From Candidatus Raymondbacteria bacterium RIFOXYA2_FULL_49_16 (GTDB taxonomy: Bacteria > Fibrobacterota > OXYB2-FULL-49-7 > XYB2-FULL-49-35), in NCBI GenBank assembly GCA_001789205.1, contig MFYT01000005.1, positions 12,481-76,480 of the forward strand: DNA of 64,000 bases. Direction: 5' to 3'. A model generated the notes under the pieces. It had not been told where the DNA came from, searched no databases, and was given only the letters and a program-made list of their open reading frames with translations. A program made the position numbers and the translations under genes. Shown here piece after piece: positions 580 through 37,871 of this stretch (position 1 is the first letter of the stretch; each line of letters begins with the position of its first letter).

Positions 580-592
580 GGCATTCTCCTTC

Positions 593-2477: not shown

Positions 2478-2531
2478 AGATACGTTTAAAATAATTAAAT
2501 GCGTGAAAAGCGGGGAAGCATAGCGACCCGG

Positions 2532-3149: not shown

Positions 3150-3162
3150 GAAATGCGGCTGG

Positions 3163-3516
3163 TTACAGGATGAAGTTATCCGAGAATTCCTTCTCGTTCT
3201 TGACAATGGAGATTATTTCCGACAGACCGGTCTTGTCCAGGCTTTCCTTGATGGGCGGCGGCACGTTAAAAAGCACGAAATGGCCTTTTTCAGCGTTAAC
3301 CTTCTTGTTCATATTGGAAATAAGTCCCACGCCAGCAGAATCGATGAAGGTGACCCCTTTGAGGTCGCAGGCAGCATAAATACGGCCGTATTTGAGATCG
3401 TTGAGAAAAAGGTTCTTCAATTCAAGAATAGTCGACACGACCAGTTCTCCAGAAAGCACATAGACCGTGAATTCACCCACGTTCTTGGCTGCGATTTTCA
3501 GCTCTCCATTTTCCAT
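3163..3516 (-). CDS. STAS-domain anti-sigma factor antagonist
   Basis: Single-domain STAS protein of 117 aa, SpoIIAA/RsbV-like. The conserved loop LKGVTFIDSAGVGLISN contains the serine normally phosphorylated by an anti-sigma kinase and dephosphorylated by a PP2C-type phosphatase. RBS-like AGGAGGACAC precedes the ATG. It lies between the Big_5 lipoprotein and tmk genes, so its genomic neighbours do not identify its partner kinase. A SpoIIE-type phosphatase is encoded at 47056 in this window and could belong to the same partner-switching circuit, but that is inference only. Confidence 0.88.
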   Translation of the reverse strand: MENGELKIAAKNVGEFTVYVLSGELVVSTILELKNLFLNDLKYGRIYAACDLKGVTFIDSAGVGLISNMNKKVNAEKGHFVLFNVPPPIKESLDKTGLSEIISIVKNEKEFSDNFIL

Positions 3517-3530
3517 ATAGTGTCCTCCTT

Positions 3531-5276
3531 CTAGGGAACCGTGATCTCTATTCCCTCAACGGCCCATTGTTTGCGCACATACACTGAATCGGCGCCCACG
3601 ACCAGCTGTTCGGCACACGACAGGCAGCGTAGCGACCCGACGTCGTATTTCCGGTTTCCGTTTTTGTCCTGGTAGGCGAAAATCCGGTACGATCCTTCAG
3701 GAACGCGTGTTTGTAAAAAATATCCGTTTTTTTCTGGACTAAATTCAACTTCTTTTTTCCCCTGCATTGAAAAAACCGCGACGCGGCATCGGGAAGGGTC
3801 CGCAGCCTTCACTGTGCCGGACAGAGACCCATTGTCATCATCGCCAAAAACAGTGAACACCCCTCTCAGTATGGAATCAGACGAGGCATTATTGTGCCGG
3901 TCCAACAGACTCTGGGGGTCAATTGTCCACTGATACTTGCTACCAGGCGCCAGGGAATCGGGCAGAAAGGTGAAAATAAAAGGCCCTGCCTGCAACACAC
4001 TACCGCTGACAGGAGTGTATGTTGTGTCCCGCGTCACAGCACTATCCACGGTATCGGCCGTCACCATCATCCGGTTCAAAGTAAACCCTGTGCGCAACCC
4101 TGGTTCCTGCACAGGTTCGTCGAATACAATCCGTACGGTATCGCCGGGAAAAAACCGTGCAATGCGCTGGTCTGGAAAAACCGAGGCCAGGTGCGGGCCA
4201 GTGGTATCGGCCCTGCCATTGCCGATAAAATCAGCAGCAGCCCTGGCTGAATCGAGCAGCGTACCGTCACTGGCAATAAGAGCACGAGCAGCAATCCGGT
4301 ATTTGATCCCGCTTTTGGGCTGAGACGTCAGGATGCAGACAGCGGCTGAATCAAGGGGATACGTAAGCACTGACTCTATCTTCAGCGGTTCTTTCTGTTG
4401 GGTAGAATCCTTCACTTGAATAATATAATTGTTAGGATTAAAGGCAAGCGAATCTCTGACTGGCTTTGAAAAAGTGACTAAAAGCATGTTGCCTGGCCTG
4501 GATGATGCGCGTGTGAGTGCCAAACCCGCGGTATCCATAGTGGTTGGCACGAGCACCAATCCTTCGTATTTGGGATTAGCGGTTGAGAGCGTAATGGCCG
4601 GGTCGCCAATGGCAAGTTTTTCCCTGCCTGGCTCAAATTTCCTGTTCTGGTTAAAATCGGAAAAAGCAAAAACACGGTAGGTCCCGGGCTTCATGTTCTG
4701 CAGTTCAAACAATCCATCGCTGCCTACCTGGCTGATATACGTTGGAATAGTTGTGACCGGATTTGCTTCAGCCGTATCATTGCCGAGAAACGCGCCTATG
4801 GTGAATCCCTGGGTTATCCGTTTTCCATCCTGGCCATAAAGCGCTCCTCTGATAGAGCAGCTGTCGATAAAAGGCCCTGTTGAAAAGGAGAGCGTGTAAG
4901 CCGAGGCGAGTTTGTTGCCGCGATAGTCGGGAATATCGGTTCCCAATGTAATGACATAGGTGGTGCTGTCGAGAAGCTTACCACGCGAAATAATGGTGAT
5001 TTTTGGGCCATTGGCCTCAATGTTCATGGAAGGAAGGGCTGGTGAAATAAACACAGACCGTTTGAGATTCTGCGGATTAATCCATTCGCTGAGAGTTATT
5101 TCAGCCCGGGCATCGGTTGGTACCAGCAGCGCTCCCATGGCGGGTGTTGCGGAAATAACAACAGGGCTGGTCTTGTCCTCGGGCCCGCCGCCTGGAGCGC
5201 CTTTGTGTGCGCAGGAACAAATAAGGAAGATAACCACAAATAAAAGGGATGTGGCCGTTTTCACAGGTATCTTCAT
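3531..5276 (-). CDS. Ig-like (Big_5) domain lipoprotein
   Basis: Exported lipoprotein of 581 aa. The N-terminus TATSLLFVVIFLICSCAHKG is a lipoprotein signal with the lipidated Cys near residue 22, followed by GAPGGGPEDKTSPVV, a style common in FCB-group Big_5 proteins. Residues about 35-135 form a first Ig-like Big_5 domain (VISATPAMGA, LSFSTG). A middle region has a SdrD/DUF-like segment (GTYRVFAFSDFNQNRKFEPG), which is repeated near the C-terminus (EGSYRIFAYQDKNGNRKYDVG). These NGNRKYD-like loops resemble calcium-binding loops of B-type repeats. Function is unknown; a cell-envelope structural or carbohydrate-associated role is a guess. It precedes the STAS gene by 14 nt. Confidence 0.8.
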   Translation of the reverse strand: MKIPVKTATSLLFVVIFLICSCAHKGAPGGGPEDKTSPVVISATPAMGALLVPTDARAEITLSEWINPQNLKRSVFISPALPSMNIEANGPKITIISRGKLLDSTTYVITLGTDIPDYRGNKLASAYTLSFSTGPFIDSCSIRGALYGQDGKRITQGFTIGAFLGNDTAEANPVTTIPTYISQVGSDGLFELQNMKPGTYRVFAFSDFNQNRKFEPGREKLAIGDPAITLSTANPKYEGLVLVPTTMDTAGLALTRASSRPGNMLLVTFSKPVRDSLAFNPNNYIIQVKDSTQQKEPLKIESVLTYPLDSAAVCILTSQPKSGIKYRIAARALIASDGTLLDSARAAADFIGNGRADTTGPHLASVFPDQRIARFFPGDTVRIVFDEPVQEPGLRTGFTLNRMMVTADTVDSAVTRDTTYTPVSGSVLQAGPFIFTFLPDSLAPGSKYQWTIDPQSLLDRHNNASSDSILRGVFTVFGDDDNGSLSGTVKAADPSRCRVAVFSMQGKKEVEFSPEKNGYFLQTRVPEGSYRIFAYQDKNGNRKYDVGSLRCLSCAEQLVVGADSVYVRKQWAVEGIEITVP

Positions 5277-5393
5277 AACAATCTTGGACGTCCCACTGCA
5301 GGTTACAGGTTTCCCTTGTATTCTTGCATCTAATATACAATTTTTACGTAAAAATAGCCGTTTTTTATAAAATATACCATTTTCATTGAATCA

Positions 5394-5585
5394 CTAGACA
5401 AAAGAGAACATTCTCACCAAACGATCGTCAAGCGCTAATGGATATGGCGCAGGATGGTTTCTCGTTGATTCACCTGTAATGTTCCAGATTTGGCTGAACC
5501 ACAGGTCAAATTTGTCCTTTGGAATCATGCTTAATTTTCTCTGCATTTCCGTAGGTTGCCGGTATCCGCCGGGCTTTCTTTGCAT
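5394..5585 (-). pseudogene. Internal fragment of a DNA methyltransferase
   Basis: This 63-codon reading frame looks like a piece cut from the middle of a beta-class N4/N6 DNA methyltransferase. The residues GYRQPTEMQRKLSMIPKD, then KFDLWFSQIWNITGESTRNH, then HPAPYPLALDDRLVRMFSFV are the stretch that normally leads straight into GDTVLDPF, the SAM-binding motif I. Here a stop codon comes immediately after FSFV, so motif I and everything after it are missing, and the catalytic N-terminal half is missing too. It starts 18 nt after the stop of the PaeR7I-type endonuclease gene, so it is most likely the relic of the matching methylase. Family resemblance is from memory of conserved motifs; no alignment was run. 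Confidence 0.7.
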
Positions 5586-5603
5586 AAGAATGAATTCAAT
5601 ATG

Positions 5604-6332
5604 TTATGCTTCTCCGAACGCGGTCAACTGGCCAATCATTGACCGGACAAACATTTCAAAACTTAAATCAGAAGCTGGCTCTGCAAATTCACCGTTTATT
5701 CCGTTGGTTTTTGATGAAAGAATAAACGATGACACTGAATAGTGTCTCTCACGGACGAGTTTTCTGCAAAAAAGTTCGTACCGTTTCGCGTATGATGCGC
5801 CACCGAATTCCGGAAACACCTTGAAATGTGGCTCCTGAACTTTAACCAAGCTGTTGGAGCGTTCACAGTCTTCGAGCATGAAAAAATATCCGAGCCAGGG
5901 TTTTATGGTTGCATTGAACGCGCCTTCCCGATATGCGGTCCAAAGATCAAGAGCGCTGCCCATGGCTTCTTCGGTTCGGTTGTTAAAATTGTTGCCAAAA
6001 GATGGTCCTACCTGGGATTTTGCTTCAAGAGCAAGCAGGCGTTGACCATTTTTCACCACAAGCAGATCCCACTCTTTAGTAGGACGAAAAAAACCTGGCA
6101 GCTGAAGGGAATGGTTGGAATATATATTGGCTTTTGGAATACCTGCTTCCAGAATAATGTCAGATAAAAGATGAATTATACCATCCATCTGAGCGCCACC
6201 GGTCACAGCGCTACGAGCTCCCTGATCGCTGGCCCCTTGTTCTTTCTGTTTTTTCCCTTGAGCTGCCCGAGTTTGCCAGTAGAAAGCTATAGCTTTTTTT
6301 AGTTTGTCCTGTAAGTCATTGATGTTAAACAT
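5604..6332 (-). CDS. PaeR7I/XhoI-family type II restriction endonuclease
   Basis: Type II restriction enzyme family whose known members (XhoI, PaeR7I) cut CTCGAG. Seen: KEWDLLVVKNGQRLLALEAK, a PD-(D/E)xK nuclease core with Asp and Glu-x-Lys, then SQVGPSFGNNFNNRTEEAMG, the family hallmark, and DLWTAYREG. At 242 aa it is full length, and the ATG has a good AGGAGA ribosome-binding site. It is the leftmost complete gene of the cassette array, and only a methyltransferase fragment follows it. CTCGAG sites do occur in this window (for example near 24462, 48439 and 55049), so an active enzyme would need protection from another methylase, or the enzyme must be inactive. Specificity is inferred from family. 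Confidence 0.88.
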   Translation of the reverse strand: MFNINDLQDKLKKAIAFYWQTRAAQGKKQKEQGASDQGARSAVTGGAQMDGIIHLLSDIILEAGIPKANIYSNHSLQLPGFFRPTKEWDLLVVKNGQRLLALEAKSQVGPSFGNNFNNRTEEAMGSALDLWTAYREGAFNATIKPWLGYFFMLEDCERSNSLVKVQEPHFKVFPEFGGASYAKRYELFCRKLVRERHYSVSSFILSSKTNGINGEFAEPASDLSFEMFVRSMIGQLTAFGEA

Positions 6333-6562
6333 GCAACTACATCTCCTGTTTGAAAAATACCTTTAACCACAGCAAATATTCCACATTCATGGAGGCAAAA
6401 TAAAAACGGTGTCCATACCTTTGTTTGCCTATTGATTTTGTTTTGATTCTTGAGGATCTAAGTTAAATATAACAGAAAAATATGACAAACCCTGTCACAT
6501 GTAGAAAAAAACGAATTTCACTTTTGCAGGTATTTTATGGGGTTGTTAGGAAAAAGCTGTTC

Positions 6563-6730
6563 TGCTTACGGGTTGCGCCATGCTGAAGTTGCCGCCTATA
6601 ACATTGCAGAAGTATTGGGCTATCAAGCGGAGTCTACGGAGCTTGATAGAACGATACTTCTGCCTACCCCTAGTCCAAGCGGCAATTTGGGGCGGGGCTT
6701 TGACCGCCCAGCATGGGGCTGTTGTTTGTC
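6563..6730 (-). repeat. attC-like hairpin site between the ankyrin and PaeR7I cassettes
   Basis: Nested inverted repeats read from the sequence: 6578-6585 with 6709-6716 (CCATGCTG/CAGCATGG), 6589-6595 with 6679-6685 (TTGCCGC/GCGGCAA), 6606-6615 with 6654-6663 (10 bp, perfect) and 6621-6628 with 6641-6648 (8 bp, perfect). The outer box 6724-6730 reads GACAAAC on the minus strand (R''-like), and the other end 6563-6569 reads GTAAGCA (a decayed R'-like box). The architecture, a core box, a spacer and a structured imperfect hairpin, is that of integron attC sites, although the core boxes do not fit the GTTRRRY consensus exactly. The rest of the 6333-6901 gap shows no gene. Confidence 0.65.
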
Positions 6731-6901
6731 TGTTGCCGGGTAGCTGTCTTCGCTTTCTTCTCGCGCGCATCCGTATTTTATTGTATTTTGGTAAAACGGT
6801 ATCGAAAAAAATCATATTCTTCTGGAAACCGTGCTTCGCATGGATATGAAACCTATGCGCTCATCAAATAAAATGATTCGCGCATAGGCTAAGACGAACA
6901 A

Positions 6902-8284
6902 CTATTTACCCTTGCTTTCAAGATATTTCTGAATTTCTTTAAATCCGAGTTCCTTTGCATATTTCGAAGGGGAAAACTTGCCGCCAGCCATAAGACATGC
7001 CCCTTTTTCTGCCGAACCTTTACCCATTTTCCCAGTTCGAGCTTTCATTTCCATTTGATGATTCATCCAGAAATTATTTGCATCGGCAAGCATTTTGACC
7101 ATTTCCATATTATTATTCTCGATTGCAAAATATATGGAAGATTTCTTTGAAAGGTCATATGCACAGCCATTGGGAGCAACGAAATAGCCGCTGATACCTT
7201 CAGTCTCCTTGCAGCCAGCGGCTAATAATGCCTTTGCGACCTCAAGATGATTGTATATTACAGCGTATGAAAGTGCGGTAAAGCCCTTTGCATACTGTCC
7301 AGTTGTATTATCCAGATCCCAGGTTTCATGGGTCACATCGGCACCACGCTCAATAAGAAGATTAACTAATGCTAAGTCCCCTCTTTTTGCAGCCAGCGAA
7401 AGTGCCGACTTTTTGTCCTTGGTCAGGTGGTTGACATCAGCTCCGGCTGCGACAATCGCTTTTGCCGCATCCAGCTTGCCGGAAACAAGAGCAACTAAAA
7501 GCGGTGTATAGTCAGATGCATTCTTCTGGTTGATATCTACATTGGCGTTTTTCAATAATTCAAACATTTGCGCCGGTGTACCGTTAGCAGTAGCAGGTAA
7601 GTCAGCATACCAATCTGGTACTTTCAATCCAAAGGATTCCATTGCCGGTTTACCATTTTTATATTGTGCTTTCCTTTCCTCCGCAGTCATTGAAAAAGCG
7701 GCAAAATTGTGCGCAAGATTCGAATTGTCGGCGGATGAGCTTTGGATTTTGGCTCCTTTTTCAAGAATTTTTTGCAGACAGGGCACACAATTGGTCTGCT
7801 GCACAGTTACCTGAATAGCTGTTACTTCGCTCGGTTTAGAATTTGCAAGCGCGCCTTCCCATGCTTTTATTGCTGCTTCGTTGGCTTTTTTACCTTTCGC
7901 TTTTTCAGCAGCTATGAGTGTCCTGAAGGTAGTCCCCGGATCAACCTTGCCAGGCTTATTGGGATCAGCGCCTTTCTGTAGCAGCATTTCAACAACATTT
8001 ACGGAATATGAATTGCATGCTGATATCAGAGCTGGATAATTCCCTCCGTTAGGATCGGCTCCTTTATCGAGAAGTAACTGGACGATTTCAGGCCAGAAAA
8101 AAGCAGATGCTATAGGAGAATTACCATCTGCGCCAATCTTATTTACATCAGCACCAGCATCAATTGTTTTTTTAACGGCTTCCAAATTACCCTGTTTGCA
8201 GGCTGATACCAAATCGGTGTTGGGGTCTGCAAATGAAATGCAGAAGAAGGTCGATACGAATAGAGCTATAATCGCTTGTTTCAC
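6902..8284 (-). CDS. Secreted ankyrin-repeat protein
   Basis: Protein of 460 aa with a signal peptide (IIALFVSTFFCISFADP, cleavage probably after SFA) and two blocks of ankyrin repeats: about residues 22-120 (GNLEAVKKTIDAGADVNKIG, VQLLLDKGADPNGG, VEMLLQKGADPNKPG) and about 245-370 (AAKAIVAAGADVNHLT, ALVNLLIERGADVTHE, EVAKALLAAGCKETEG). Between the blocks is a segment with a CVPC pair. Translation starts at a GTG with AAGGAA upstream. It is a single-gene cassette: its start and end are flanked by matching inverted sequences around 8405-8464 and 6724-6790. The role is unknown; periplasmic protein-protein binding is the most that can be said. Confidence 0.8.
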   Translation of the reverse strand: MKQAIIALFVSTFFCISFADPNTDLVSACKQGNLEAVKKTIDAGADVNKIGADGNSPIASAFFWPEIVQLLLDKGADPNGGNYPALISACNSYSVNVVEMLLQKGADPNKPGKVDPGTTFRTLIAAEKAKGKKANEAAIKAWEGALANSKPSEVTAIQVTVQQTNCVPCLQKILEKGAKIQSSSADNSNLAHNFAAFSMTAEERKAQYKNGKPAMESFGLKVPDWYADLPATANGTPAQMFELLKNANVDINQKNASDYTPLLVALVSGKLDAAKAIVAAGADVNHLTKDKKSALSLAAKRGDLALVNLLIERGADVTHETWDLDNTTGQYAKGFTALSYAVIYNHLEVAKALLAAGCKETEGISGYFVAPNGCAYDLSKKSSIYFAIENNNMEMVKMLADANNFWMNHQMEMKARTGKMGKGSAEKGACLMAGGKFSPSKYAKELGFKEIQKYLESKGK

Positions 8285-8457
8285 AGTAGTTCCTTTCAGT
8301 TTCAGGATTAAAATTATTGGTCTACGGGTCTATTTTCTGTAAGAAAATATAACAATTGAGGGCTTCCTCCTTTCCTGTGGCCTTAAAGTTGGTGGTTTAG
8401 CTTTTCCATATTTTATTCTGCGCGCGAGTCTGGTATTTCTTTCAGCTACCCGGTAAT

Positions 8458-8579
8458 TGCAAACGTGTGCCGTGTTACGACGTGGCCAGCGTTAGAAAAC
8501 GTGACGGAAATTTGCGACACGTTTTATTCAGACGCTGGCCATGTGCGCGTTTCGCGCGAACGTAACGCGGCTGTTGGGT
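8458..8579 (-). repeat. attC-like hairpin site between the DinD and ankyrin cassettes
   Basis: Inverted repeats: 8469-8479 with 8561-8571 (10 of 11 bp), 8483-8492 with 8532-8541 (TGGCCAGCGT/ACGCTGGCCA, perfect) and 8496-8503 with 8518-8525 (AAAACGTG/CACGTTTT, perfect). The minus-strand left box at 8573-8579 is ACCCAAC, which fits the R'' consensus RYYYAAC exactly; the far box at 8458-8464 is GTTTGCA, which keeps the GTT but not the purines. Total length of about 122 bp is within the range of attC sites. The remaining part of the 8285-8645 gap carries no recognisable gene. Confidence 0.7.
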
Positions 8580-8645
8580 GCATTTAGCTGGAATGCCACC
8601 ATGTTTCAAATTCTTGTTTGCGCCGTTTTTTCTTGCACCGAATTT

Positions 8646-9500
8646 TTATTCATCCAGCATTAATTTATTCGGAGTTTTTTTAAGCTTTTTTAACTGTTCT
8701 CGTTCAACTTCACTGATATTTTTACTTGGAACAGGTAAATCTTCCGGCATTGTACCACCCACTCGCTCAATCGTTCCTCGTACTTCTTTCCCAACGATAA
8801 AGTGGATTTCATTAGCGGCATCAGCGGTTGCCGCCTTATCTTTTTTTAATTTATCATCAGTCTGGGATATTCTAAACAAATTGGCAATTAATTCCGTACT
8901 ACTCATATAATCAAGAATCCTGTCCTGTTTCTTCAGCCCCTTCTTTTTATGAATATCTTCGACCTTCAATCCGCCATACAGTCCCATATAACCGGCATTC
9001 TGAAAAGTCGCATACTCTTCATTGCTGATGACACCTGCATTATGGGCGGATTCGGCAAGCATCTGGTTCCATTGCTTGATATCACCCCTAATGACCAGTC
9101 GTTTGTTGTCTTCATCAAGCTGATTAAAGTAGTCGGCGACTTCCTGTCGTCTTGTTTGAATTGCAAAATATGTTTGACCTAAGGCAATGACCTCTTTCCG
9201 TGGGTCTCCATTCTGAACGATTAAATAACAAGCATAACGGGTGAGTTTAAAATCAGCAATGGGTTTTGAAGTAGCACCCGCTTCTACGATTTTGCTGACC
9301 TCAGCAAAATGGTCTTGAAGCGCATATCCACTATTCTTACAGGCAAGCATAGCCCTGTCTAAAACTTTTGCAAAATTCCGCCATTGTACATATTCAAGTA
9401 CAGGCGCAAGCTCCCTGGCATACCAGAATTCAGCGCCATCATCCGAAACATGTTTGATTGCTTCAAATGAAACGTATTCTTTTGCTTTTAAATTACTCAT
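8646..9500 (-). CDS. DinD-like protein (DNA damage-inducible protein D family, BRO-N domain)
   Basis: 284-aa protein with an N-terminal BRO-N/antirepressor-type domain (AEFWYARELAPVLEYVQWRNFAKVL, with TRYACYLIVQNGDPRKEVIA) typical of DinD. The C-terminal part is helical and charged (NEIHFIVGKEVRGTIERVGG). E. coli DinD is an SOS-induced inhibitor of RecA-mediated strand exchange; that role is carried over by family only. It has an AAGGTGG ribosome-binding site and follows a 245-aa unknown protein by 43 nt in the same cassette. It is more AT-rich than the housekeeping genes nearby. The family call is strong; its role in this array is not known. Confidence 0.85.
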   Translation of the reverse strand: MSNLKAKEYVSFEAIKHVSDDGAEFWYARELAPVLEYVQWRNFAKVLDRAMLACKNSGYALQDHFAEVSKIVEAGATSKPIADFKLTRYACYLIVQNGDPRKEVIALGQTYFAIQTRRQEVADYFNQLDEDNKRLVIRGDIKQWNQMLAESAHNAGVISNEEYATFQNAGYMGLYGGLKVEDIHKKKGLKKQDRILDYMSSTELIANLFRISQTDDKLKKDKAATADAANEIHFIVGKEVRGTIERVGGTMPEDLPVPSKNISEVEREQLKKLKKTPNKLMLDE

Positions 9501-9543
9501 GCTGCCACCTTTTTAAAACAGGCATTCGTTTTAATGACCGTTA

Positions 9544-10281
9544 CTATTTAGTCAATATTTTAATAAAATCCCATAATGCACTGGCTATCAGATTTAATGC
9601 TATTGCAATTATTCCGGTTGTTAAAATTGAAAATAATGGATACTTTTTAATAAAAAGTTCAATTTGCAATATTTTTGGTTTACATATTTTTTTCAATTCA
9701 CTTTCAAATACGGATATAACATCCTCTTCAATTTGTCTGGTTTTAAATTCTGCTTTACAAGAGTTGCATAAAATCGGTTTTTCCGTGTTATAAATTATAT
9801 CTTGCTTATCACCATTTAAATCAAAAAGGCACCCTCTTGTATCCCTGTGTACAAGCGAATAAACATCGTCGGTAGAAATAATTTTAAATAAACGCTTAAT
9901 TGCGGATGCTTCATAAATTTGCTTTAAAATAAAGTTATCCGCAGAAATAAATTCTCTGGACAATAAGTCGGTAATTCCATGTAAGGAAACTACAACGCAA
10001 TTTGATCCAATTCGGTGCATGTAGAAATTGTCTATGAACCTATATGCCATTATTCCCATTGCTAAATCAGACTCAGAAGGGCATGTTATGAGATTTGAAA
10101 GTTGATCCTTTTCAAATTTCTGATCCAAATAATCATCATCAACTTTACATTCCGGTAAATGTTCAATCGTTTGAATATTAGTTATTTCGAATATTTTTAA
10201 TTTCCACTTTTTGATTTTATTTACATTAAATAAATTGTTCGCATGCCCTAAAAGTATTAAGGATATCTTCATTTTTTTCAT
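9544..10281 (-). CDS. Unknown protein with C-terminal membrane segment
   Basis: 245 aa, strongly AT-rich and not recognised. The start has a clear TAAGGA ribosome-binding site. The first 140 residues look like a soluble alpha/beta domain (ISLILLGHANNLFNVNK; ITCPSESDLAMGIMAYRFID). A Cys pair in ILCNSCKAEFK near residue 170 could bind metal, though only one CxxC is visible. The C-terminus has a hydrophobic helix (LFSILTTGIIAIALNLIASA) that probably anchors it in the membrane. It is the first gene after the leader copy at 10400, co-transcribed with the DinD-like gene. The design of a sensor-like domain plus membrane tail next to a DNA-damage gene suggests defence, but that is speculation. Confidence 0.7.
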   Translation of the reverse strand: MKKMKISLILLGHANNLFNVNKIKKWKLKIFEITNIQTIEHLPECKVDDDYLDQKFEKDQLSNLITCPSESDLAMGIMAYRFIDNFYMHRIGSNCVVVSLHGITDLLSREFISADNFILKQIYEASAIKRLFKIISTDDVYSLVHRDTRGCLFDLNGDKQDIIYNTEKPILCNSCKAEFKTRQIEEDVISVFESELKKICKPKILQIELFIKKYPLFSILTTGIIAIALNLIASALWDFIKILTK

Positions 10282-10382
10282 ATTTGTCCTTAAATTACCG
10301 CCATGTTGGCGGCTGATATTCTCTTGCGTGCAATGTTTTTAATAATTTTTATTGTCTTCGGCGCAAACCTATGAATTCCATT

Positions 10383-10406
10383 CATTCCGGCTTATTGCAT
10401 CCCAAC
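10383..10406 (-). repeat. Cassette start box (R'-like) of the 245-aa/DinD cassette
   Basis: On the minus strand this begins GTTGGGATGC and opens the cassette. Its first 24 nt are an imperfect inverted match to the cassette's other end at 8573-8595 (shared GTTGGG, then TGCA-T-AGC-GGAATG). In a circularised cassette these two ends would pair as the outer stem of one attC, as expected for integron cassettes. This is direct sequence comparison by eye. Confidence 0.6.
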
Positions 10407-10802
10407 TATTGTATCGATGAACATTTTGTATACCTTCCGGGGCATAAATACGAACATCCCCCTATCTTCTACGGCATGCAAAGCGAATACAATAAATGTA
10501 CCTATTCCATGCCTGCTCTGTCAATATTCCCGTTACTATTGTATCACTATTGCCACACAATTGTCGCCTTTGTTATGTTTTACCCGGTCATACAATGCCA
10601 AACCTCAAATACTGCCGCATAATCGCTGTCTGTGTCCTTTTTACCGGCTTTTTGCTTGCAGGGTGGGGCGCAAGCATGTCCGCTTTTTCAGGCTTTGCTA
10701 AAAACAGGTACGAACATTCAACAGGAAAGTTTCTTCGTAAATTCTCGAACACGGACCAGACATACTACCATTCACTTGCCATTGTCTTGACAGTGGGAAA
10801 TT
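10400..10802. repeat. Leader copy A (attI-like duplicated block)
   Basis: This stretch is a diverged copy of 13876-14275. Shared words include CCTATTCCAT, GTCAA-ATTCCCGTT, GCCTTTGTTATGTTTTACCC and the first two-thirds of the membrane-protein gene. It lies immediately upstream, in minus-strand direction, of the 245-aa/DinD cassette, just as copy B lies upstream of the Mrr cassette. The similarity stops at about 10802 inside the membrane-protein frame. It explains most of the gap 10282-10764. By position it plays the part of an attI/leader region, but no integrase gene is attached. Confidence 0.75.
10495..10524 (-). promoter_or_regulatory. Putative cassette promoter (Pc-like), copy A
   Basis: On the minus strand: -35 TTGACA (10519-10524), 18-nt spacer, -10 TACATT (10495-10500). 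It points into the 245-aa/DinD cassette, whose boundary is about 90 nt further on. The same hexamers with the same spacing occur in copy B while the flanking bases have diverged, which supports function. Confidence 0.5.
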
Positions 10803-10846
10803 GTTTTACGGCCTTGTCAAAATCGCTTTCGAGCAAACGGTCTTGA
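10595..10846 (+). pseudogene. Truncated copy of the 104-aa membrane protein gene
   Basis: The frame starts MPNLKYCRIIAVCVLF and matches the intact gene at 14067 for about 68 residues (GWGASMSAFSGFAKNRYEHS, then STGKFLRKFSNTDQTYYHSL), after which the sequence becomes unrelated and ends at 10846. The second membrane helix is lost. The 3' side overlaps, antisense, the last codons of the RhuM gene, so the break marks the junction between the two sub-arrays. Expression as a functional protein is unlikely. Confidence 0.75.
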
Positions 10847-11820
10847 ATAACCCGGTATTTTTCGTACTCGCCTTCGGCGAATGACTTGGCTATTTCGACG
10901 CTCACTTTGCCCGGATTATCCAAAATTTCTTTTTCGTTGAATTTTAGGAACGCATCGAGTTTTTCAACCCAATCTTTCATAAACATTACCTTGCGGTCAT
11001 TGGCCTGCATTTCGGCGTAATCCAGATACATGGTAATAATACGGTTTAGGCCTTCCAGTTCTTTTTCGTTCAGGTAGTTCTTGGCAATACTCACATCGGC
11101 TTTTCGTATCTGACCTTTCGGAGCGTTTTTCCATGTGGAAAGGCCCATATTCTGTTTTTCACTGCTTGCCCTGCTGTAAATAATTTCCGCGGCAGTTTGG
11201 CGCGAAATTGCCCAGTGCATTTTATTCTGCACCGTGGCAAAAAAGCGGTCTGTAGTTTCGCTATCAGGATCGTAATCAGCGCTGCACTGTGCGTATATGT
11301 CGGTGATTTTCTGGTAAAAACGGCGCTCGCTTGAGCGTATATCCCGTATACGGGCAAGTTGTTCTTCGAAGTAGTCTTTGCCAAAAATGTTGTTCGGGTT
11401 TTTAAGCCGTTCATCATCCATGGTAAAACCCTTGATGATGTATTCTTTAAGGCGCTCCGTTGCCCAGATACGAAAATGTGTTGCCCTTGTGGAATTGACC
11501 CGGTAACCGACAGAAATTATTGCGTCAAGATTATAAAACTCTATGTTTCGTGTAATCTGCCTGCCACCTTCGGTTTGAACTTGTGCAATTTTTGCACAAG
11601 TTGCCGATCTCCGTAACTCCTTGCTATCGTATATGTTACGCAGGTGCTTTGTAATGACACTTCTTTCTACATCGAACAACTCAGCTATCTTTGCCTGGCT
11701 AAGCCATACGGTTTCGTTATGCAAAAATATTTCAACCTTAACCTTGCCGTTAGGCGTAGTGTAGAGCAGAAATTCGGTGTAGGAATTGTTGGGAACTATC
11801 GCATTTTTCTTTTTAGGCAT
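10765..11820 (-). CDS. RhuM family protein
   Basis: 351-aa protein of the RhuM/virulence-protein family, found widely in pathogenicity and defence islands; biochemical role unknown. Seen: the N-terminal winged-helix-like part (VWLSQAKIAELFDVERSVITKHL), the invariant FYNLDAIISVGYRVNS, FRIWATERLKEYIIKGF, and C-terminal KADVSIAKNYLNEKELEGLN. The start codon overlaps the stop of a 67-aa gene (TAATG), so the two are coupled. The last ~12-15 codons lie inside the leader-copy-A homology and read antisense to the truncated membrane-protein gene, so the native C-terminus has probably been replaced. Confidence 0.88.
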   Translation of the reverse strand: MPKKKNAIVPNNSYTEFLLYTTPNGKVKVEIFLHNETVWLSQAKIAELFDVERSVITKHLRNIYDSKELRRSATCAKIAQVQTEGGRQITRNIEFYNLDAIISVGYRVNSTRATHFRIWATERLKEYIIKGFTMDDERLKNPNNIFGKDYFEEQLARIRDIRSSERRFYQKITDIYAQCSADYDPDSETTDRFFATVQNKMHWAISRQTAAEIIYSRASSEKQNMGLSTWKNAPKGQIRKADVSIAKNYLNEKELEGLNRIITMYLDYAEMQANDRKVMFMKDWVEKLDAFLKFNEKEILDNPGKVSVEIAKSFAEGEYEKYRVIQDRLLESDFDKAVKQFPTVKTMASEW

Positions 11821-12023
11821 TAGGGAACCACCAAGTTTTTTGCTTCATCTTTTTCAGCTTCAAAACGAGATTGCAGACTATCGAATGTCTTTTCATTTCT
11901 GATTTTTATCGGTTCATACCAATATTTATTATCTCTTTTGCCTTTGTAGAAGCACAAATAAGTCTCGTTAATAAAGTTATCTTCAGCGGCAATAAGCATA
12001 AAATAGCCTTTTCTGAATACCAT
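11820..12023 (-). CDS. Small unknown protein upstream of RhuM
   Basis: 67 aa, not recognised: an acidic/aromatic sequence containing AAEDNFINETYLCFYKGKRD and a charged C-terminus. Its stop overlaps the RhuM start by one base (TAATG), which supports translation. An internal ATG at 11999 has a better AAAAGG ribosome-binding site and would give a 59-aa product starting MLIAAEDN. It opens the second cassette, about 110 nt from the attC-like site at 12131. Confidence 0.5.
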   Translation of the reverse strand: MVFRKGYFMLIAAEDNFINETYLCFYKGKRDNKYWYEPIKIRNEKTFDSLQSRFEAEKDEAKNLVVP

Positions 12024-12130
12024 TTAGAATGGTTTTCGTATTCAGGCACCCCCCAATTTATTTTCATTTCTCTTTTTAGAAATCGGTTTTACGCCACTGC
12101 TCAATTGCATTTGAAAACGTGCAGCATTTA

Positions 12131-12238
12131 CACCAACGGCCCGGGCATACAAGACGTTTTGCTGTAGGCTTTGCGGAAGCAAAATGTGCCGCAGGCCAAG
12201 GGAGGCTTTGCGACCGTCGCTTGTATGCCCTGTTAGCG
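12131..12238 (-). repeat. attC-like hairpin site between the Mrr and RhuM cassettes
   Basis: Perfect 11-bp inverted repeat 12143-12153 with 12220-12230 (GGGCATACAAG/CTTGTATGCCC), inner pair 12157-12162 with 12179-12184 (TTTTGC/GCAAAA), and outer 12126-12132 with 12241-12247 (ATTTACA/TGTAAAT). Minus-strand boxes are CGCTAAC (12232-12238, R''-like) and GTTGGTG (12131-12137, R'-like). The spacing of box, 5-nt spacer and stem is that of an integron attC. The gap 12024-12388 holds this site and no gene. Confidence 0.75.
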
Positions 12239-12253
12239 GCTGTAAATATGAAC
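12232..12253 (+). repeat. Cassette end box of the Mrr cassette (22-bp inverted match with 13861-13882)
   Basis: The 22 nt beginning GTTAGCGGC and ending TAAATATGAAC are the reverse complement of 13861-13882 with only two mismatches. The pair brackets exactly the Mrr and 139-aa genes. In a circularised cassette they would form the outer stem of a single attC. Confidence 0.75.
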
Positions 12254-12388
12254 GCTACCATAGTGTAATTGTTTTCCGCCGCCTCTTCGTCTTTTTGTTT
12301 TCTGTCTTCATGGTGCACATTTCTTCAGCGCATGGATGCGCTATTTACATCTATTCTTCAGTCTCGCATAGTCGTTGTAATTTACAGA

Positions 12389-12808
12389 TCACTTTTTATT
12401 GTTAATGAATTTATAAAAATTACGACAGGTCGAATCATAAGCGGTAATATATCTCTGTTGGGTAAATTCATTCGGGTCCCAACAATGAGGTATTGGCCCT
12501 CCTGATTCATCAAGGTAGTCTAATAGTATTTTTTTCGCTGGCCACGTTCTTTGATTTTCATTTTCATGAATTCTTCTTATAATTTCCGAACCAAAAACGC
12601 CTAAATTTGACATGTATTTTTTTATTGTGCTTCTTGCCAATTTATTGCCTACCAAAAATTCGATAAATGGGATAAATTCAAGAAGAATTCTATTTCCTAA
12701 ATCAATATCTTCTTTAAACCCCATCCAATGCTGAGGCCATTCATAAAAGTCCTCAAAATAAAGCAATGGTATTTTATTTATTGATGAACCACTTTTATCT
12801 ATCGACAT
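12389..12808 (-). CDS. Unknown 139-aa protein downstream of mrr
   Basis: Not recognised. A helical protein with aromatic motifs (YFEDFYEWPQHWMGF) and a helix-rich middle (ARSTIKKYMSNLGVFGSEII) faintly like the N-terminal SAM-like domain of tyrosine recombinases, but with no catalytic domain and too little to claim homology. It follows mrr by 31 nt in the same cassette. There is no clear ribosome-binding site before the ATG at 12808. It may be a partner or immunity protein for the nuclease, or simply a passenger. Confidence 0.6.
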   Translation of the reverse strand: MSIDKSGSSINKIPLLYFEDFYEWPQHWMGFKEDIDLGNRILLEFIPFIEFLVGNKLARSTIKKYMSNLGVFGSEIIRRIHENENQRTWPAKKILLDYLDESGGPIPHCWDPNEFTQQRYITAYDSTCRNFYKFINNKK

Positions 12809-12839
12809 ATTTTTAATTCTTATTTCAGTTCTGTGTCGC

Positions 12840-13745
12840 TTATTCTTCAGTAAAATAATCAGAATCTATTTTGTTAATATCATAAGTTGTAACTGTTGAT
12901 ACCCCAACCTTATTGTCAATCATTAAGTTTGCCAGTAATTCACCATCAATTAAAATGATTTTACTCTCAATTCTTGAAACGTAATCTATAGCATCCTTGG
13001 AATAATTCGAGGTTGTAATAAATATTCCTTTTTTTGCATGATGAAGTTGTAATGCGCCGGCAAATTTCTGAATTTCAGGTCGTCCGACACAACCTTCCCA
13101 CCTTTTTGCTTGAATGTAAAGAATATCAAGGCCTAATTTGTCTTCTTTGATAATTCCATCAATTCCTCCATCTCCACTTTTACCTATAGCTTCACCAGCG
13201 TCTTTTCTTGAACCACCATAACCCATTTTTACCAAGAGTTCAATAACAAGTCTTTCAAAGAAAGTCGGGGAACAACTTTTAATGTTCTGAATAATTTCGT
13301 TTGCTAAATTTGATTTCAATCTCAAATAAGCAGATTCAATAGACTCCTCTGGAGTTTCAGAAGTTGTCTCAACTGCAACAGGTTCTTCTTTATCCTCTTT
13401 TCGAACATTTTGAAATTCAAGGAATTCCGGAAATTGTCGTAGAAATGACGCATCAATTTTTTCCGGCTTTTTTGATAAAATATTCATTCCTCTTTCAGTA
13501 ATCTGAAAAAAACCTCGCCTGACAGGTTCAAGTAATAGAGCTTTTTTTAGGTAGGTTCTTGCCCATCCGACTCTATTCTCAAATATCGGCTGGCTACCGC
13601 TGGGAAGTAATTGTTTCTTATCATCATCATTGAGTTCAAATTTCAATTCCAAATGCTCGATAGTTTCCCGAAGCGAATGTTCTTTTTTATCCGCCAAAAA
13701 TTGAAGAAGTGGGAGCATTATTGATTGATAATCCGGTATTGCCAT
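12840..13745 (-). CDS. mrr: Mrr-type restriction endonuclease
   Basis: Type IV restriction enzyme family that cuts modified DNA. The N-terminal winged-helix (Mrr_N) spans about residues 5-95 (LPLLQFLADKKEHSLRETIE; GWARTYLKKALLLEPVRRG). The C-terminal PD-(D/E)xK-like nuclease spans about 160-285 with FFERLVIELLVKMGYGG, GKSGDGGIDGIIKED and the catalytic QAKRW, followed by GRPEIQKFAGAL and GIFITTSNYSKDA. At 301 aa it is full length. GAGGAAATTT precedes the ATG. It is the first gene behind leader copy B, the best-expressed position if the array behaves like an integron. Confidence 0.92.
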   Translation of the reverse strand: MAIPDYQSIMLPLLQFLADKKEHSLRETIEHLELKFELNDDDKKQLLPSGSQPIFENRVGWARTYLKKALLLEPVRRGFFQITERGMNILSKKPEKIDASFLRQFPEFLEFQNVRKEDKEEPVAVETTSETPEESIESAYLRLKSNLANEIIQNIKSCSPTFFERLVIELLVKMGYGGSRKDAGEAIGKSGDGGIDGIIKEDKLGLDILYIQAKRWEGCVGRPEIQKFAGALQLHHAKKGIFITTSNYSKDAIDYVSRIESKIILIDGELLANLMIDNKVGVSTVTTYDINKIDSDYFTEE

Positions 13746-13860
13746 AAATTTCCTCTCATCATTTCTTCGCCACCTGGACGGTGGCTTGTTTTCTCTTGTG
13801 CGCCATTCTTATTTGTTTTAACTCTATTTTTGTCTTTGGCGGCGGCTATCAGTCTTATTC

Positions 13861-13882
13861 GTTCATATTTATTGCCGCTAAC
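13861..13882 (-). repeat. Cassette start box (R'-like) of the Mrr cassette
   Basis: On the minus strand this begins GTTAGCGGC and is the first sequence after leader copy B. It is the 22-bp inverted partner of 12232-12253. The junction with the leader, around 13882, corresponds to the recombination point in an attI/cassette junction. Confidence 0.65.
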
Positions 13883-14275
13883 TAGTGTATTTATGAACAT
13901 TTCGCATCTTCCTATGCATAAACCCGCCCCCCCTCTCCTGCCTGACATGCAAGCTGAACACACTAAAAGTACCTATTCCATACCTACCCTGTCAACATTC
14001 CCGTTCCTGTTTTTATCACTATTGCTGCATAGCTGCCGCCTTTGTTATGTTTTACCCGGTCATACAATGCCAAACCTCAAATACTGCCGCCCAATAGCTG
14101 TCTGCGTTCTTATTGCCGGGCTTTTACTTGCCGGCTGGGGCGCAAGCATGTCCGCCTTTTCAGATTTTGCCAAAAACAGATACGAACATTCTACAGGAAA
14201 ATTCCTCCGCTCTGTCTCGCGCAAAGACCAGACATATTACCGTTCACTCGCCATTGTTTCAGCTGCGGGAAAAGC
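13876..14275. repeat. Leader copy B (attI-like duplicated block)
   Basis: The intact version of the leader: from the Mrr cassette boundary, through the promoter at 13966-13995, into the 104-aa membrane protein gene. Copy A at 10400-10802 resembles it over its whole length with many scattered differences, so the duplication is not recent. Both copies head a run of minus-strand cassettes. The gap 13746-14066 is fully explained by this block and the cassette start. Confidence 0.75.
13966..13995 (-). promoter_or_regulatory. Putative cassette promoter (Pc-like), copy B
   Basis: On the minus strand: -35 TTGACA (13990-13995), 18-nt spacer, -10 TACTTT (13966-13971), pointing to the mrr cassette. The same -35 and spacing occur in copy A with TACATT. 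The -10 is weak, so strength is uncertain. Confidence 0.5.
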
Positions 14276-14381
14276 CATGTCAAGCATTGGCCTGCTCGTC
14301 ATTCTTACGGGAATATGCTGCATGGTACGACCCGCGCTCATTACTAGGTTCATTAACCCCAACAAGGACATCCACGTATGA
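14067..14381 (+). CDS. Small two-helix membrane protein divergent from the cassette array
   Basis: 104 aa, not recognised. Two hydrophobic helices (AVCVLIAGLLLAGWGASMSA near residues 10-29; SIGLLVILTGICCMVRPALI near 72-91) flank a polar segment with KNRYEHSTGKFL. The frame stays open for a further 114 codons upstream, but that part lies in the leader and cassette sequence and is not conserved in copy A, so the ATG at 14067 is preferred. Its stop overlaps the start of the DUF486 gene (ATGA), so the two form an operon. It lies where an integrase gene would be in an integron. A truncated copy is present at 10595. Confidence 0.7.
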   Translation: MPNLKYCRPIAVCVLIAGLLLAGWGASMSAFSDFAKNRYEHSTGKFLRSVSRKDQTYYRSLAIVSAAGKAMSSIGLLVILTGICCMVRPALITRFINPNKDIHV

Positions 14382-14766: not shown

Positions 14767-15960
14767 TTATGCAAGAGTTGGCGGTTTCTGAAACCTGAAA
14801 TTCGGCCTCTGGAACGTATAATCATTCTTTTTAAGTTCCGCAAACCGTTCCCGTGCGTACACCAGGACCTCCTCGGCCCAGGCTTTGTTCTCATCCACGC
14901 AAAAGATGCGCCAGAGCAGATCGTCTTTAAATTGCGCTAGGTCTGTTCCCTTGTATTCGTCCCAATATATCGCAAGGCAATTCAGGGCGGTTTCGCGCCA
15001 CCGCGCGGCAACAGTGGCGGGGTCTGCGCACAGCGCGTCAAGATGGGCGAAATACGCCGCAAGCTCGTCACGCGCAGCCCCTTCCAGCAAATAGGGCCGG
15101 TGTTCCGGATGAAGGGCAATGCGCGCGGGAATCCGCTCGACCGCCCGCACACCATCTTTTGCAATAGTGCACTGGAGAATGAAGGAGTCGAAACAATGCA
15201 CGCTGTTGGACTTGAGATACGGATTCGAGTCTACATCAAAGAGAAAATTTCCCAGACTGTAAGCGATCCATCCGCGTCCATACTTTTCAATACCCTGCGG
15301 CACATGCGGGTGATGGCAGAGGACCAGGTCAGCGCCCGCATCGACCAGCGCGCGGCAATAGGCTTGGCGCGGGACCGAAGGAGTCTCCCTGAATTCAATG
15401 TCCGCATGCACACTGACCACCAGCACGTCCACGCTTTGCCTGCACGCGGCAATGCGCTCCTTCGCTTTTGCGAGGGAAAAATACGCCGGTCCCGGAGCGT
15501 CAACGCCAAAGGTGTAGTTGCAGTCCTCAAGAAAACCGAGAAACCCCACTGAACAGCCCTTTTTCTCAACCACCGCCAGTCTGTGCGCGCTATCAGGGTC
15601 TTCGCCAGCGCCGCACACGGCAAATCCCCCGGCAGCAAGGGCCTTTAGGGTATGGACAAGACCGGTTGCGCCCAAATCGAGGGCATGGTTGTTGGCAAAA
15701 TTGACAACAGTGAATCCCGCGTCCTTTAGCGCCGCGAGCGCTGAGGGCGGCGCCCACAGGCCCGCGGGATCCAGTTTCTCGGAAGGAAACCCGGGAGGAA
15801 GAACAGGAGATTCGAGGTTACAAAAAGCAATGTCAGCAGCGCCAAGAACATGCCGCACCTTCTCAAATGCATACCCAGGACCGTGGCAATCCAGGGCCTT
15901 TGCCGCGTCCCCGGCAAAACAGACATCGCCAACCACACTCAGTGTCAGAAGAGGCGTCAT
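14767..15960 (-). CDS. CapA-family protein (PGA_cap metallophosphatase-like)
   Basis: 397-aa protein of the CapA/PgsA family, a calcineurin-like metallophosphatase fold tied in some bacteria to poly-gamma-glutamate capsules. Motifs seen: VVGDVCFAGD, FCNLESPV, NFANNHALDLG, VSVHADIEF and DLVLCHHPHVPQG with YSLGNFLFD. No signal peptide is visible. Its start overlaps the stop of the 3001-aa surface protein gene by 4 nt (ATGA), so it is the last gene of that operon. Whether it acts on an extracellular polymer connected with that surface protein is unknown. Confidence 0.88.
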   Translation of the reverse strand: MTPLLTLSVVGDVCFAGDAAKALDCHGPGYAFEKVRHVLGAADIAFCNLESPVLPPGFPSEKLDPAGLWAPPSALAALKDAGFTVVNFANNHALDLGATGLVHTLKALAAGGFAVCGAGEDPDSAHRLAVVEKKGCSVGFLGFLEDCNYTFGVDAPGPAYFSLAKAKERIAACRQSVDVLVVSVHADIEFRETPSVPRQAYCRALVDAGADLVLCHHPHVPQGIEKYGRGWIAYSLGNFLFDVDSNPYLKSNSVHCFDSFILQCTIAKDGVRAVERIPARIALHPEHRPYLLEGAARDELAAYFAHLDALCADPATVAARWRETALNCLAIYWDEYKGTDLAQFKDDLLWRIFCVDENKAWAEEVLVYARERFAELKKNDYTFQRPNFRFQKPPTLA

Positions 15961-18900
15961 TTCATCATCACCATTTTAAGGGTTTTCACATACCGGCCCG
16001 CCTGTATACGGTACACGTACACGCCCGAGGCCACATCGCGGCTCCGCGCATCCCTGCCGTTCCAGGCTATCTTGTAATACCCGTAGGTATGGAACTTATT
16101 TTCCACCAGACGCGTGACAAGCCGCCCCTTGAGGTCGTAGATATCAAGCGTCACACGTCCGGGTTCCTTTAACTGGTAGTTGATGGCAGTGGCCGGATTA
16201 AAGGGATTGGGGTAGTTTTGCGCAATGGCCGTGGCCGCGGGCAATTCACGCGCAGTACCGCTGTGCTGACGGACATAGTCCATTGATCCGGCAATGACCG
16301 CAAGCGAAACGTCAGGTTTGGCCCCTGTGGCAAAAATCGGGATTTCGGCCTGTTTGCGCATATCGACAAGAACATTGCCGTCCGGAACAAGCAAGAACAG
16401 GTTCTCGTTTTCCGGGACACCTGCGATCCCGTCTGTTGTCAGCATGTAGCGCACAGTCTTTGCGGACGACGGCTGCGCGGAAAGGCAAAGCGGCCAGGTA
16501 TTACCGTCCGTCTCGCTGTTCCGGTAATCAGACATATAGTACCGTGACGCCCACTGCCGCCATTCCGGGTGCGGAATCGATACCCTGAATTCCTTGAGCA
16601 GCGCTGGCGGTCCAATATGGTCAAACGCATTGTCGCGTCCGTCAGTCGCCAACCCGGTCTCGCCAAGCTCAATGGCGTCGGTCCATGATCCCTGGCTAAA
16701 TGAAAACCGGAGATTCCACGACCCAGGACCAGAGCACTGTTTTGCAAGGCTGTTGGTCCCTGGTTGCAGTGAGGGGAAGAGAATAGTGTCTGGCGTGCTG
16801 GCAAAAACCCAGTATCCATGATAGGGCCGTATGGAATCAGTTGGCGCATATGATTCGTCAGCGCTGTTGTACGCATAAAAGGCGCGCTGGACCGTGTTTG
16901 TATCAAGGACAACATCAGCCGCGTTTACAGTAAAGGCAAATGGATTACCCACCTGGTTCCATCCCTGTCTGAGCGCAACCGGAAAAGCCTGGGTAAGACT
17001 GTCCGCGGTAACCAGGGGCGTGGAACGGGCTGACCCGAGCGCAAGCGCCTGCGCCTGTCCCTGTTTGGAATAGACCCAGACAGCTGTGCCGGGCGCCATG
17101 GCGAGAAGCGAGGCAGAACCACCTGGTTCGTGGTCAATATAGACACCGTTATCAGCGCCCGAAGCCTGCCATCTGCCAATACGCCAGTCGAGGGTATCGC
17201 TGGTAATAAGGCTGGCAAAAACCGAATCGGGCGATGGCGTATCAACACTGAAGGGCAGAGAAACCATGGTAAACCGCGCCGCGGGAACCGTTCCCTGGGG
17301 AACAGATGCTGTGGCAAGGGTTTTGCCCACAGTCCGGTGCTTGCAAGCCGCGCTTTGCAGGCCATCGGACACTGTCAGCCAATATTCAAACCCATAGTCC
17401 GCGTTTGTCACAAAGGCCGAAGGAATGGTCGCGCTGAAAGAGGCTGCGCCTGATACTGTTGCCTTGGTGATGGAAAGCGCAATTGCGGTTGCGCCTGGTT
17501 CACGGTACAGAAGCGTGATTGCGGGATTGGGGATATTCTCAGTGACTGTCCCGTACACGCGATACGAGCTTGTCACTGAATCAATGGCAACCGCAGGCGC
17601 TGTGGAATCGAGGCCAAGCGCATACTGGGAGAACGAATGCAGCCAAGCGCACACATATCCCAGCCTGTCCAGAGAATCTAAGGGGAAAACCGCTTGCCAG
17701 GACGCGCCCTTTGCACTTCGTCTGAAAATCATGAGATGAGAAGCTGATCCGGAAAATAAGGAGGGAACGGGAAGCGAGAGCAGCGCGGAAAAACCCGAAT
17801 CCGGACCTGTGAACGAATAAATAGCGCCCACCATTTCAATAGTGTTGGGCAGGGTATCATCAGCGGCTGGGACCAGTTTCTGGATCGCTACACGTTCATT
17901 GTCAAACCCCGACTGTGGTGGAAAAAACAACCGCACCGTGTCCCCATTGTCGGCCAGAAGAATGCGCGTGGTATCCGCGGCAACGATAAATCCGCTCGAA
18001 GCCGTGACATTGACGGTAAGAACGAAGCTCAGATACGTTGTATCAGCGCCATCAAAAGCGAAAAGCCGGATGGTACCGTTGAACGCGCTGTCCGCGAAAA
18101 AGACAAGCGCATACCGCGAGCCTCCCAAGGCAATGACCCGCATGGAGGAGACCGGAGCGCCAAGGACGCCGACAGCGTCAAAAGTGGCGTCATCGTCATC
18201 AGTGACGGTGAATTCTATGCGCACACTGTCGACGATTGTGATAGTGGTGTCGGCTGCGCCGGCGAGGACCGGCGGGTCGTTCACCGGTATCGCGGTCGCG
18301 GAAAAGGTGATGGTGTCAGCATATCCATAGCCGTCGTCGACCATGATCCGGACAAGCACGTCGTTTGCGGGATACTGCGGGTCCCACGTAAACAAACCAT
18401 TGCTGTCAATGGCCATGAAAAGACTGTCGGGATTGGCGGGACGGAGAATTGTGTAATAGAGCTGCTGTCCGTCAGCGTCGGAGGCCACGATTTGCAGGCT
18501 GTATGCCGAATCTTCCACAGCCAGGATATCATTAGCGCTATTGGCAATGACCGGAGCTGCTGTGTTGTAAATTACACGCAGCGTGTCGCTGGGTGTGCTG
18601 GCATTGCCCACTTCGTCGCGGGCAACCAGCCAGAAGAGGTTTTCACCGGTATGGAGCGGCACATCCACGATATCGACCGTGTCGCTGATAAGGGAAGCCA
18701 TCTCCTTGATCAGCGCTGAATCGCGGTACAGGTCCAGGGACGCGCCCTGCGTGGCAGACGCACGGAGTGTGATTACATCGCCGGACACCAGCGTGTCCTG
18801 CGCGGTCAAAAGCGCGGGTACTGCCGGCGGCGTCACGTCGACATAAAACCGCCATTCGAGCGTATCAGCGTTGTTCGCTTCGTCGGAGGCGACTATCTGG

Positions 18901-29025: not shown

Positions 29026-29109
29026 GATTATTCCTCTTGGCCTGCTGGTTAAGAGATCCTATTATTATAAATTACAATATAATGCATTACAACTCCAGTA
29101 ATTCCAGGG

Positions 29110-33056: not shown

Positions 33057-33079
33057 TTTCCTGATATCAGGAAAATGGT
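33052..33079. promoter_or_regulatory. 28-bp perfect palindrome at the hsdR start
   Basis: ACCATTTTCCTGAT followed by its exact reverse complement ATCAGGAAAATGGT. The first possible hsdR start codon and its AGGAAA ribosome-binding-like sequence are inside it. It may be an operator for a dimeric repressor, or an RNA hairpin that hides the start. No repressor can be named from the sequence. Confidence 0.6.
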
Positions 33080-34658: not shown

Positions 34659-34676
34659 CTCAAAGTCCTCGCCGTA

Positions 34677-37853: not shown

Positions 37854-37871
37854 GATATCTTCTCCCTGAGT

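Follow-up and report, generated by a model that had tools for sequence, protein, structure and literature searches.

A probable integron-like cassette platform of divergent type, without a local integrase, in a Candidatus Raymondbacteria genome

Introduction

Among the known bacterial devices for capturing and stacking single genes, integrons are the main one, and the locus described here raises the question of what kind of system built a tandem array of defence genes whose junctions resemble those of integrons. The array (~14.05-6.48 kb, minus strand) lies in a stretch of 64,000 nucleotides (the window; contig C5:12481-76480) of the draft genome of Candidatus Raymondbacteria bacterium RIFOXYA2_FULL_49_16 (5.43 Mb, 112 contigs) and comprises three complete cassettes and one truncated RhuM cassette (Table 1). 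A first-pass annotation of the window had proposed either a cluster of attC sites lacking an integrase (CALIN) or a related system of cassettes whose sites are divergent, and the second of these options fits best, the units being discrete and having matching ends, attC-like hairpins and attI-like borders. The locus is probably an integron-like cassette platform that is divergent in type, has extended attC-like sites and lacks a local integrase; its cassettes of 1-3 kb, which carry mostly defence-type genes, lie between left and right attI-like borders.

Cassette ends and hairpin sites

In integron cassettes, the terminal R'' box complements the R' box with which the same cassette starts, because both meet in the excised circle. 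R' and R'' are the boundary heptamers of the site, and cleavage takes place in R' (PMC2727003). The same complementarity was found in the array, at a length much greater than usual: 20-24 nt between start and end in the new-type cassettes, where true integron cassettes have 7-9 nt. The cassettes open with GTTNNNN, a loop and a unique segment X' and close with the complement X, a loop and NNNNAAC, after which a hairpin of 90-150 nt follows; X pairs solely with the X' of its own cassette.

For the end search, each GTT on the minus strand was taken and its reverse complement was sought downstream (124 starts, 1361 controls). The top match of the 124 starts joined position 13882 to 12254-12232, that is, the start of cassette 1, GTTAGCGGCAATAAATATGAACG, to its end, CGTTCATATTTACAGCCGCTAAC, with a score of 36 and a maximum of 27 among the controls. 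The pairs 10406/8573 (cassette 3, GTTGGGATGCAATAAGCCGGAATG with CATTCCAGCTAAATGCACCCAAC, score 26) and 8464/6724 (cassette 4, GTTTGCAATTACCGGGTAGCTG with CAGCTACCCGGCAACAGACAAAC, score 24) each stop exactly at the AAC opposite the GTT, directly before the hairpin. Among 20,000 random 30x30 pairs drawn from the region, scores of 36, 26 and 24 were reached 0, 0 and 1 times, respectively. The remnant of cassette 2 has a GTTGGTG start at site C, but no end matching this start was found, and the final RhuM codons are supplied by a 400-bp repeat; the one- and two-gene units noted at first pass have matching ends in the three complete cassettes, and the RhuM unit lacks its 3' end.

The specificity of the pairing was measured with the 7-nt core left out. 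On this measure all 19 new-type cassettes (the three complete ones of the window and 16 elsewhere) outscored all 342 mismatched end pairs. Since 14 of the 19 had been discovered through the end match itself, the fair test is provided by the five cassettes with both ends defined by hairpins, which scored 19-33 (mean 25) versus a mean of 8 and a maximum of 12 for mismatched ends. Thirteen canonical integron cassettes (some from the phylum, the others from a Thiodictyon plasmid and two E. coli plasmids) scored 4-11, i.e. background. On inspection by eye, a conserved CAGAC/GCAA loop parts the outer stem from the R stem in cassettes c1 and c3 of locus L052, in L087 and in cassette 4 of the window.

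The structured hairpins that the first-pass annotation had placed between the units were confirmed by folding, with dG -23.3 and z -3.7 for site C, dG -34.8 and z -6.0 for site B, and dG -33.3 and z -4.8 for site A (6723-6577). When the cassette ends and the hairpin are joined as in a circle, they form one long palindrome: folded with DNA parameters, C, B and A in circle form show 19-21 outer pairs and z values of -7.6, -6.1 and -7.0, compared with -1.8, -4.1 and -3.3 for the array forms. The outer stem would be unable to form inside the array, because the neighbouring cassettes differ. Over 11 sites the sequence of the 11-bp inner stem is free to vary, with 96.8% of cells paired, which adds little because these sites were picked as hairpins. 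No Rfam family was matched. A strict consensus, CAGACNNNCAACA...GTTGNNNGCAA, was tried and abandoned, as it had one match in the phylum and 36 viral matches, close to the chance estimate, of which only 1 had even a weak stem.

Borders of the platform

The left border (~170 bp) was found in three copies, one each ahead of cassettes 1 and 3 and one at a second genomic locus (contig C70, L104), with different genes upstream each time. It is 80% conserved between copies 1 and 2 and gives a local score of 88 against L104. The right border, which begins with GTAAGCAGA, follows the last hairpin at both loci (two copies), and its alignment to L104 7450-7350 scored 101 versus a best score of 38 in 285 control comparisons. 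At L104 the borders enclose a single cassette with a different gene. No intI lies beside any of the three left or two right copies. The left and right borders may be read as the two halves of one attI-like site, driven apart by the cassettes.

The 400-bp repeat (10800-10407 and 14283-13883, 80% identical) carries the plus-strand gene P0001 and a truncated copy of it, whose protein lacks the C-terminus. P0001 was considered as a conserved platform gene and rejected, as no relative was found in 167 genomes of the phylum or in a wider collection of genome contigs. The gene upstream of the platform is P0001 in the window and an RNA-ligase-like gene (judged by eye) at C70; because it differs between the two loci, there is no conserved platform gene. 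Matches to the platform query in other genomes proved to be a shared cassette leader and not attI.

Relatives in other genomes

Homologues of hairpins A-C were found in 21 of the 167 phylum genomes (3 of them weak), often several per genome, and a model of the hairpin stem, R2, identified sites in 11 genomes, 5 of them new; overall, related hairpins are present in about 20-26 of the 167. Occurrence of the hairpins at unrelated, non-cassette positions had been named at first pass as an observation that would speak against cassettes; where the flanks could be checked, the homologues in other genomes lie at cassette junctions. Hairpins 81-88% identical to site B stand at cassette ends in G006, G018 and G054, and one 92% identical to site A over 165 nt is present in G044. 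A pattern search with hairpin C gave one true match, at L052, in a metagenome-assembled genome labelled Thermoplasmatota (possibly misbinned), which is 94% identical to site C over 102 nt but has different flanking R boxes, and two cassettes of this locus have end matches of 25/28 and about 24/25. The other two of three hairpin C matches in the wider contig collection were discarded as coincidences in coding sequence. Searches of phages, plasmids and viral contigs recovered none of the hairpins. Consecutive cassettes have coinciding boundaries at L052 and at L127 (Schlafen-type protein, Fic), where the coincidence is exact.

One 2.9-kb cassette is shared by G006:C32 and G018:C30, at 84-89% identity and with an indel of 335 bp; the homology extends from GTTGGTG as far as CACCAACAGCC and breaks off at either end, while the neighbours and even the following hairpin differ. 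Cassette 1 of the window (12230-13882) and a cassette of G044 (L128 373-2217) have their ends (leader, trailer) in common but carry different genes and hairpins, as if the cargo had been swapped inside a conserved shell. A Pfam scan of the cassette genes of the window, L052 and L127 revealed no transposase, and the aligned junctions showed no target-site duplication.

Unrelated genes in several genomes share a cassette leader, GTTNNNGNCAATAAAT..GATAGCCGCCGCCGAAGA.., behind which a GCCGCC..GGCGGC hairpin is often present (window 13882-13750; L128 2217-2060; L125 6559-6400; L127 5800 and 8714; L126 5160; L129 581); the trailers carry GGCGGCGG, so that the end pairing may reach still further. On G006:C32 (L094, about 480-5700) RhuM and DinD genes are co-located as in the window array, with 69% and 81% DNA identity and other hairpins. 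In G026:C58 (L097 1334 and 5418) the perfect palindrome GTTTTTTCTGCATCCTGAATGCAGAAAAAAC is repeated directly before cassette starts, and in G018 (L088 9449, L191) one copy of a dispersed palindrome, AGGTATGTTGC...GCAACATACCT, abuts a cassette start and the other is preceded by GCCCAACTAC.

Search for a recombinase

The lack of intI noted for the window extends to the whole 5.43-Mb draft, in which TIGR02249 had no match over the cut-off, although a draft could be missing a contig. The best fragments (121 and 104 bits) lack positions 182-233, the IntI-specific segment, and look Xer-like. As a positive control, full-length IntI over the cut-off was recovered in 12 of 150 relatives, with canonical attC arrays beside several. 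Only four site-positive genomes (G006, G018, G054, G070) have an IntI, which lies elsewhere in the genome, and a scan with R2 of 263 kb surrounding IntI genes and other integrons detected no new-type site.

One candidate, a tyrosine recombinase whose N-terminus is HARP-like, was set aside: although the four genomes that encode it are all site-positive, it is missing from most site-positive genomes, and no site was found close to it. Tyrosine recombinase genes were seen near contig ends at L043 5271-6413 (G000:C26) and L044 4804-5604 (G000:C109), one with a HARP-like N-terminal stretch as judged by eye; at E<=1e-60, relatives were confined to G024, G052 and G056, all site-positive.

Interpretation and alternatives

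In the proposed mechanism, X, hairpin and X' would meet in an excised circle and fold into one long palindrome, on which a structure-reading tyrosine recombinase would act in trans. Cassettes would enter at the left border (GTT) and, as they stack, the right half-site (GTAAGCA) would be moved to the distal end, the empty platform reading ...ATACACTA/GTAAGCAGA..., where the slash marks the junction. As the site in the array would be weaker than that in the circle, capture would be favoured over loss, and the private outer stem would offer a testable answer to the open question of how this bias arises. A relative of integrons that differs in site architecture, is loaded with defence genes and is found across much of a phylum would widen the term cassette system, and it may have escaped integron finders, which seek canonical attC and IntI. 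No description of such sites was found in a literature search that was thin on subscription journals, which is weak evidence of novelty.

Several results weigh against this interpretation. The R boxes fit the attC consensus partly, as stated at first pass, with only ACCCAAC in full agreement with RYYYAAC/GTTRRRY and CGCTAAC, GACAAAC, GTTGGTG, GTTTGCA and GTAAGCA all deviating. No site of the window was scored by R1, an attC covariance model that was built from 14 sites as a surrogate for the published model, and its best match in the genome had E 2.4, the E-values of a home-made model being rough. The first-pass annotation would have taken such a blank result as speaking against attC sites, but R1 is not very sensitive (one of five long attCs recovered at L030) and its filters-off negative is worthless, because filters-off runs also missed known attCs. 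As R1 misses many long sites, it is the boxes and the extended pairing, more than this model, that support the statement that these are not canonical attCs. No recombinase was linked to the cassette system in the genomes searched. The comparisons of G006 with G018 and of G044 with the window suggest that units move as units, but the hairpin did not stay with the cassette in either and does not always travel along, unlike a textbook attC. When the empty site of the G018 cassette was sought in G006, the orthologous flank could be located, but the junction showed no conservation. Finally, no circle or excision was observed; circular excision and insertion at attI, by tyrosine recombination of the folded bottom strand, would be expected of an integron cassette.

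The system appears to work in an integron-like way, but membership among integrons or CALINs is not established, and it is most likely a divergent variant with cassette-private extended sites. Compared with an integron attC (R''-L''-loop-L'-R'), the new-type site likewise has an R''-like ...AAC, a short spacer, a stem of ~11 bp, a variable loop, a spacer and an R'-like GTT..., but it has an extra outer stem of ~12-20 bp that is unique to the cassette and formed only when its own ends meet, often with the CAGAC/GCAA internal loop between the outer and R stems. Sedentary chromosomal integrons of the same phylum share the GTT.../...AAC ends, the stacked cassettes, the attI-like entry point and the accessory and defence cargo, whereas the window genome has no detected IntI and the new-type sites of G006, G018, G054 and G070 do not adjoin intI. 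It is possible, if doubtful, that this is a separate class of cassette system and not an integron variant, with private self-complementary ends, a palindrome present only in the excised circle, a non-IntI recombinase and one-way capture of defence genes driven by the difference in strength between circle and array.

A CALIN is defined by at least two attC sites without an integrase (PMC9024848), and the array resembles one in its tandem one- to two-gene units of single orientation, its hairpin at each junction and the absence of a nearby integrase; it differs in the 20-24 nt pairing of its cassette ends, in having recognisable left and right borders and in going unscored by R1, a model of low sensitivity. 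Integrase-less arrays are common (PMC9024848), true integrons are present in the phylum and several boxes partly fit the consensus, yet it is unlikely that the locus is an ordinary CALIN, i.e. a decayed normal integron that has lost IntI and whose sites are degenerate canonical attCs. Extended cassette-specific pairing was present in 19 of 19 new-type but 0 of 13 canonical cassettes, and decay would not be expected to produce long matching ends; moreover, canonical attC arrays of the same phylum look different, and R2 found nothing around known integrons or IntI genes.

The boundaries are marked by inverted repeats of ~25 bp, as in transposons with terminal inverted repeats (TIRs) and miniature inverted-repeat transposable elements, and the units could be transposon-like, inserting beside pre-existing palindromes, with the hairpins as separate repeats or target sites. 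The homology between copies does stop at both TIR ends, the hairpin beside the same cassette differs between species, and the unit in G018 abuts a palindrome that also occurs elsewhere. However, the repeat is mostly cassette-specific, its inner ~15 bp being private to each cassette, unlike the TIRs of transposons, which are common to a whole family, and the units are arranged head-to-tail with a hairpin per junction, no transposase and no target duplication seen, which makes this explanation improbable. A defence island shaped by homologous recombination and duplications, in which the hairpins are transcription terminators, would account for the typical cargo, the duplication evident in the 400-bp repeat and the position of the hairpins after genes; it would leave unexplained the matching cassette ends 1.7 kb apart, and with conserved borders at two loci and the same hairpin type behind unrelated genes it is very hard to credit.

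Gene content and other features of the window

Gene calls were based on Pfam, PADLOC and NCBIfam. The GC content is 0.36-0.45 in the array stretch versus 0.50-0.58 in the flanks, in agreement with the AT-richness first described. According to PADLOC, the Mrr, RhuM (PDC-S05), DinD (PDC-S13), ankyrin (PDC-M72A) and XhoI proteins are known or candidate defence proteins, and RhuM (E 4e-115) and DinD (NCBIfam, E 1e-115) were matched strongly. The minus-strand genes named at first pass (XhoI, ankyrin, DinD, the 245-aa protein, RhuM and Mrr) were confirmed, together with two small open reading frames (ORFs) on the same strand, but plus-strand P0001 and its truncated copy had been missed. The PaeR7I-type (XhoI) endonuclease had also been counted as a unit of the array; it is not a cassette, because the array ends at the right border (6569-6478) and the gene lies beyond it.

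Table 1. Features of the array in minus-strand order from left to right border, followed by the two flanking genes (window coordinates).
Feature	Position	Strand	Remarks
Left border (attI-like), copy 1	13883-14050	-	Immediately upstream of cassette 1; ~170 bp
Cassette 1: Mrr-type endonuclease (12840-13745) and 139-aa ORF (12389-12808)	12138-13882	-	
Site C hairpin (attC-like)	12138-12231	-	R'' CGCTAAC before, R' GTTGGTG after; GTT at 12137
Cassette 2 remnant: 67-aa ORF (11820-12023) and RhuM (10765-11820)	10801-12137	-	3' end lost
Left border, copy 2, with truncated P0001 homologue (plus strand, 10595-10846)	10407-10800	-	80% identical to 14283-13883
Cassette 3: unknown 245-aa protein (9544-10281) and DinD (8646-9500)	8465-10406	-	
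Site B hairpin (attC-like)	8465-8572	-	R'' ACCCAAC, R' GTTTGCA
Cassette 4: ankyrin-repeat protein (6902-8284)	6570-8464	-	Ends fixed independently by sites B and A
Site A hairpin (attC-like)	6570-6723	-	R'' GACAAAC, degenerate R' GTAAGCA
Right border, beginning GTAAGCAGA	6478-6569	-	Proposed right half of attI-like target site
XhoI/PaeR7I-family endonuclease gene	5604-6332	-	Pfam PF04555, E 8.8e-91; beyond right border
P0001, 104-aa small membrane protein	14067-14381	+	Divergent from array, in the position intI would occupy

The XhoI/PaeR7I-type gene has no adjacent methyltransferase gene. The 139-aa ORF behind mrr had no match in Pfam, NCBIfam, PADLOC or PDB; by eye it resembles the SAM-like DNA-binding domain of recombinases. 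Adjoining the array, at 15957-24962, is the gene for a secreted repeat protein of 3001 aa that has a C-terminal sorting-type tail. At 28567-38498 lies a type I restriction-modification locus (hsdR, hsdS-like, hsdM) that looks complete, as judged by eye from the translations; with its PIN-like, metallopeptidase-like and other accessory genes, it has the appearance of a second, ordinary defence island.

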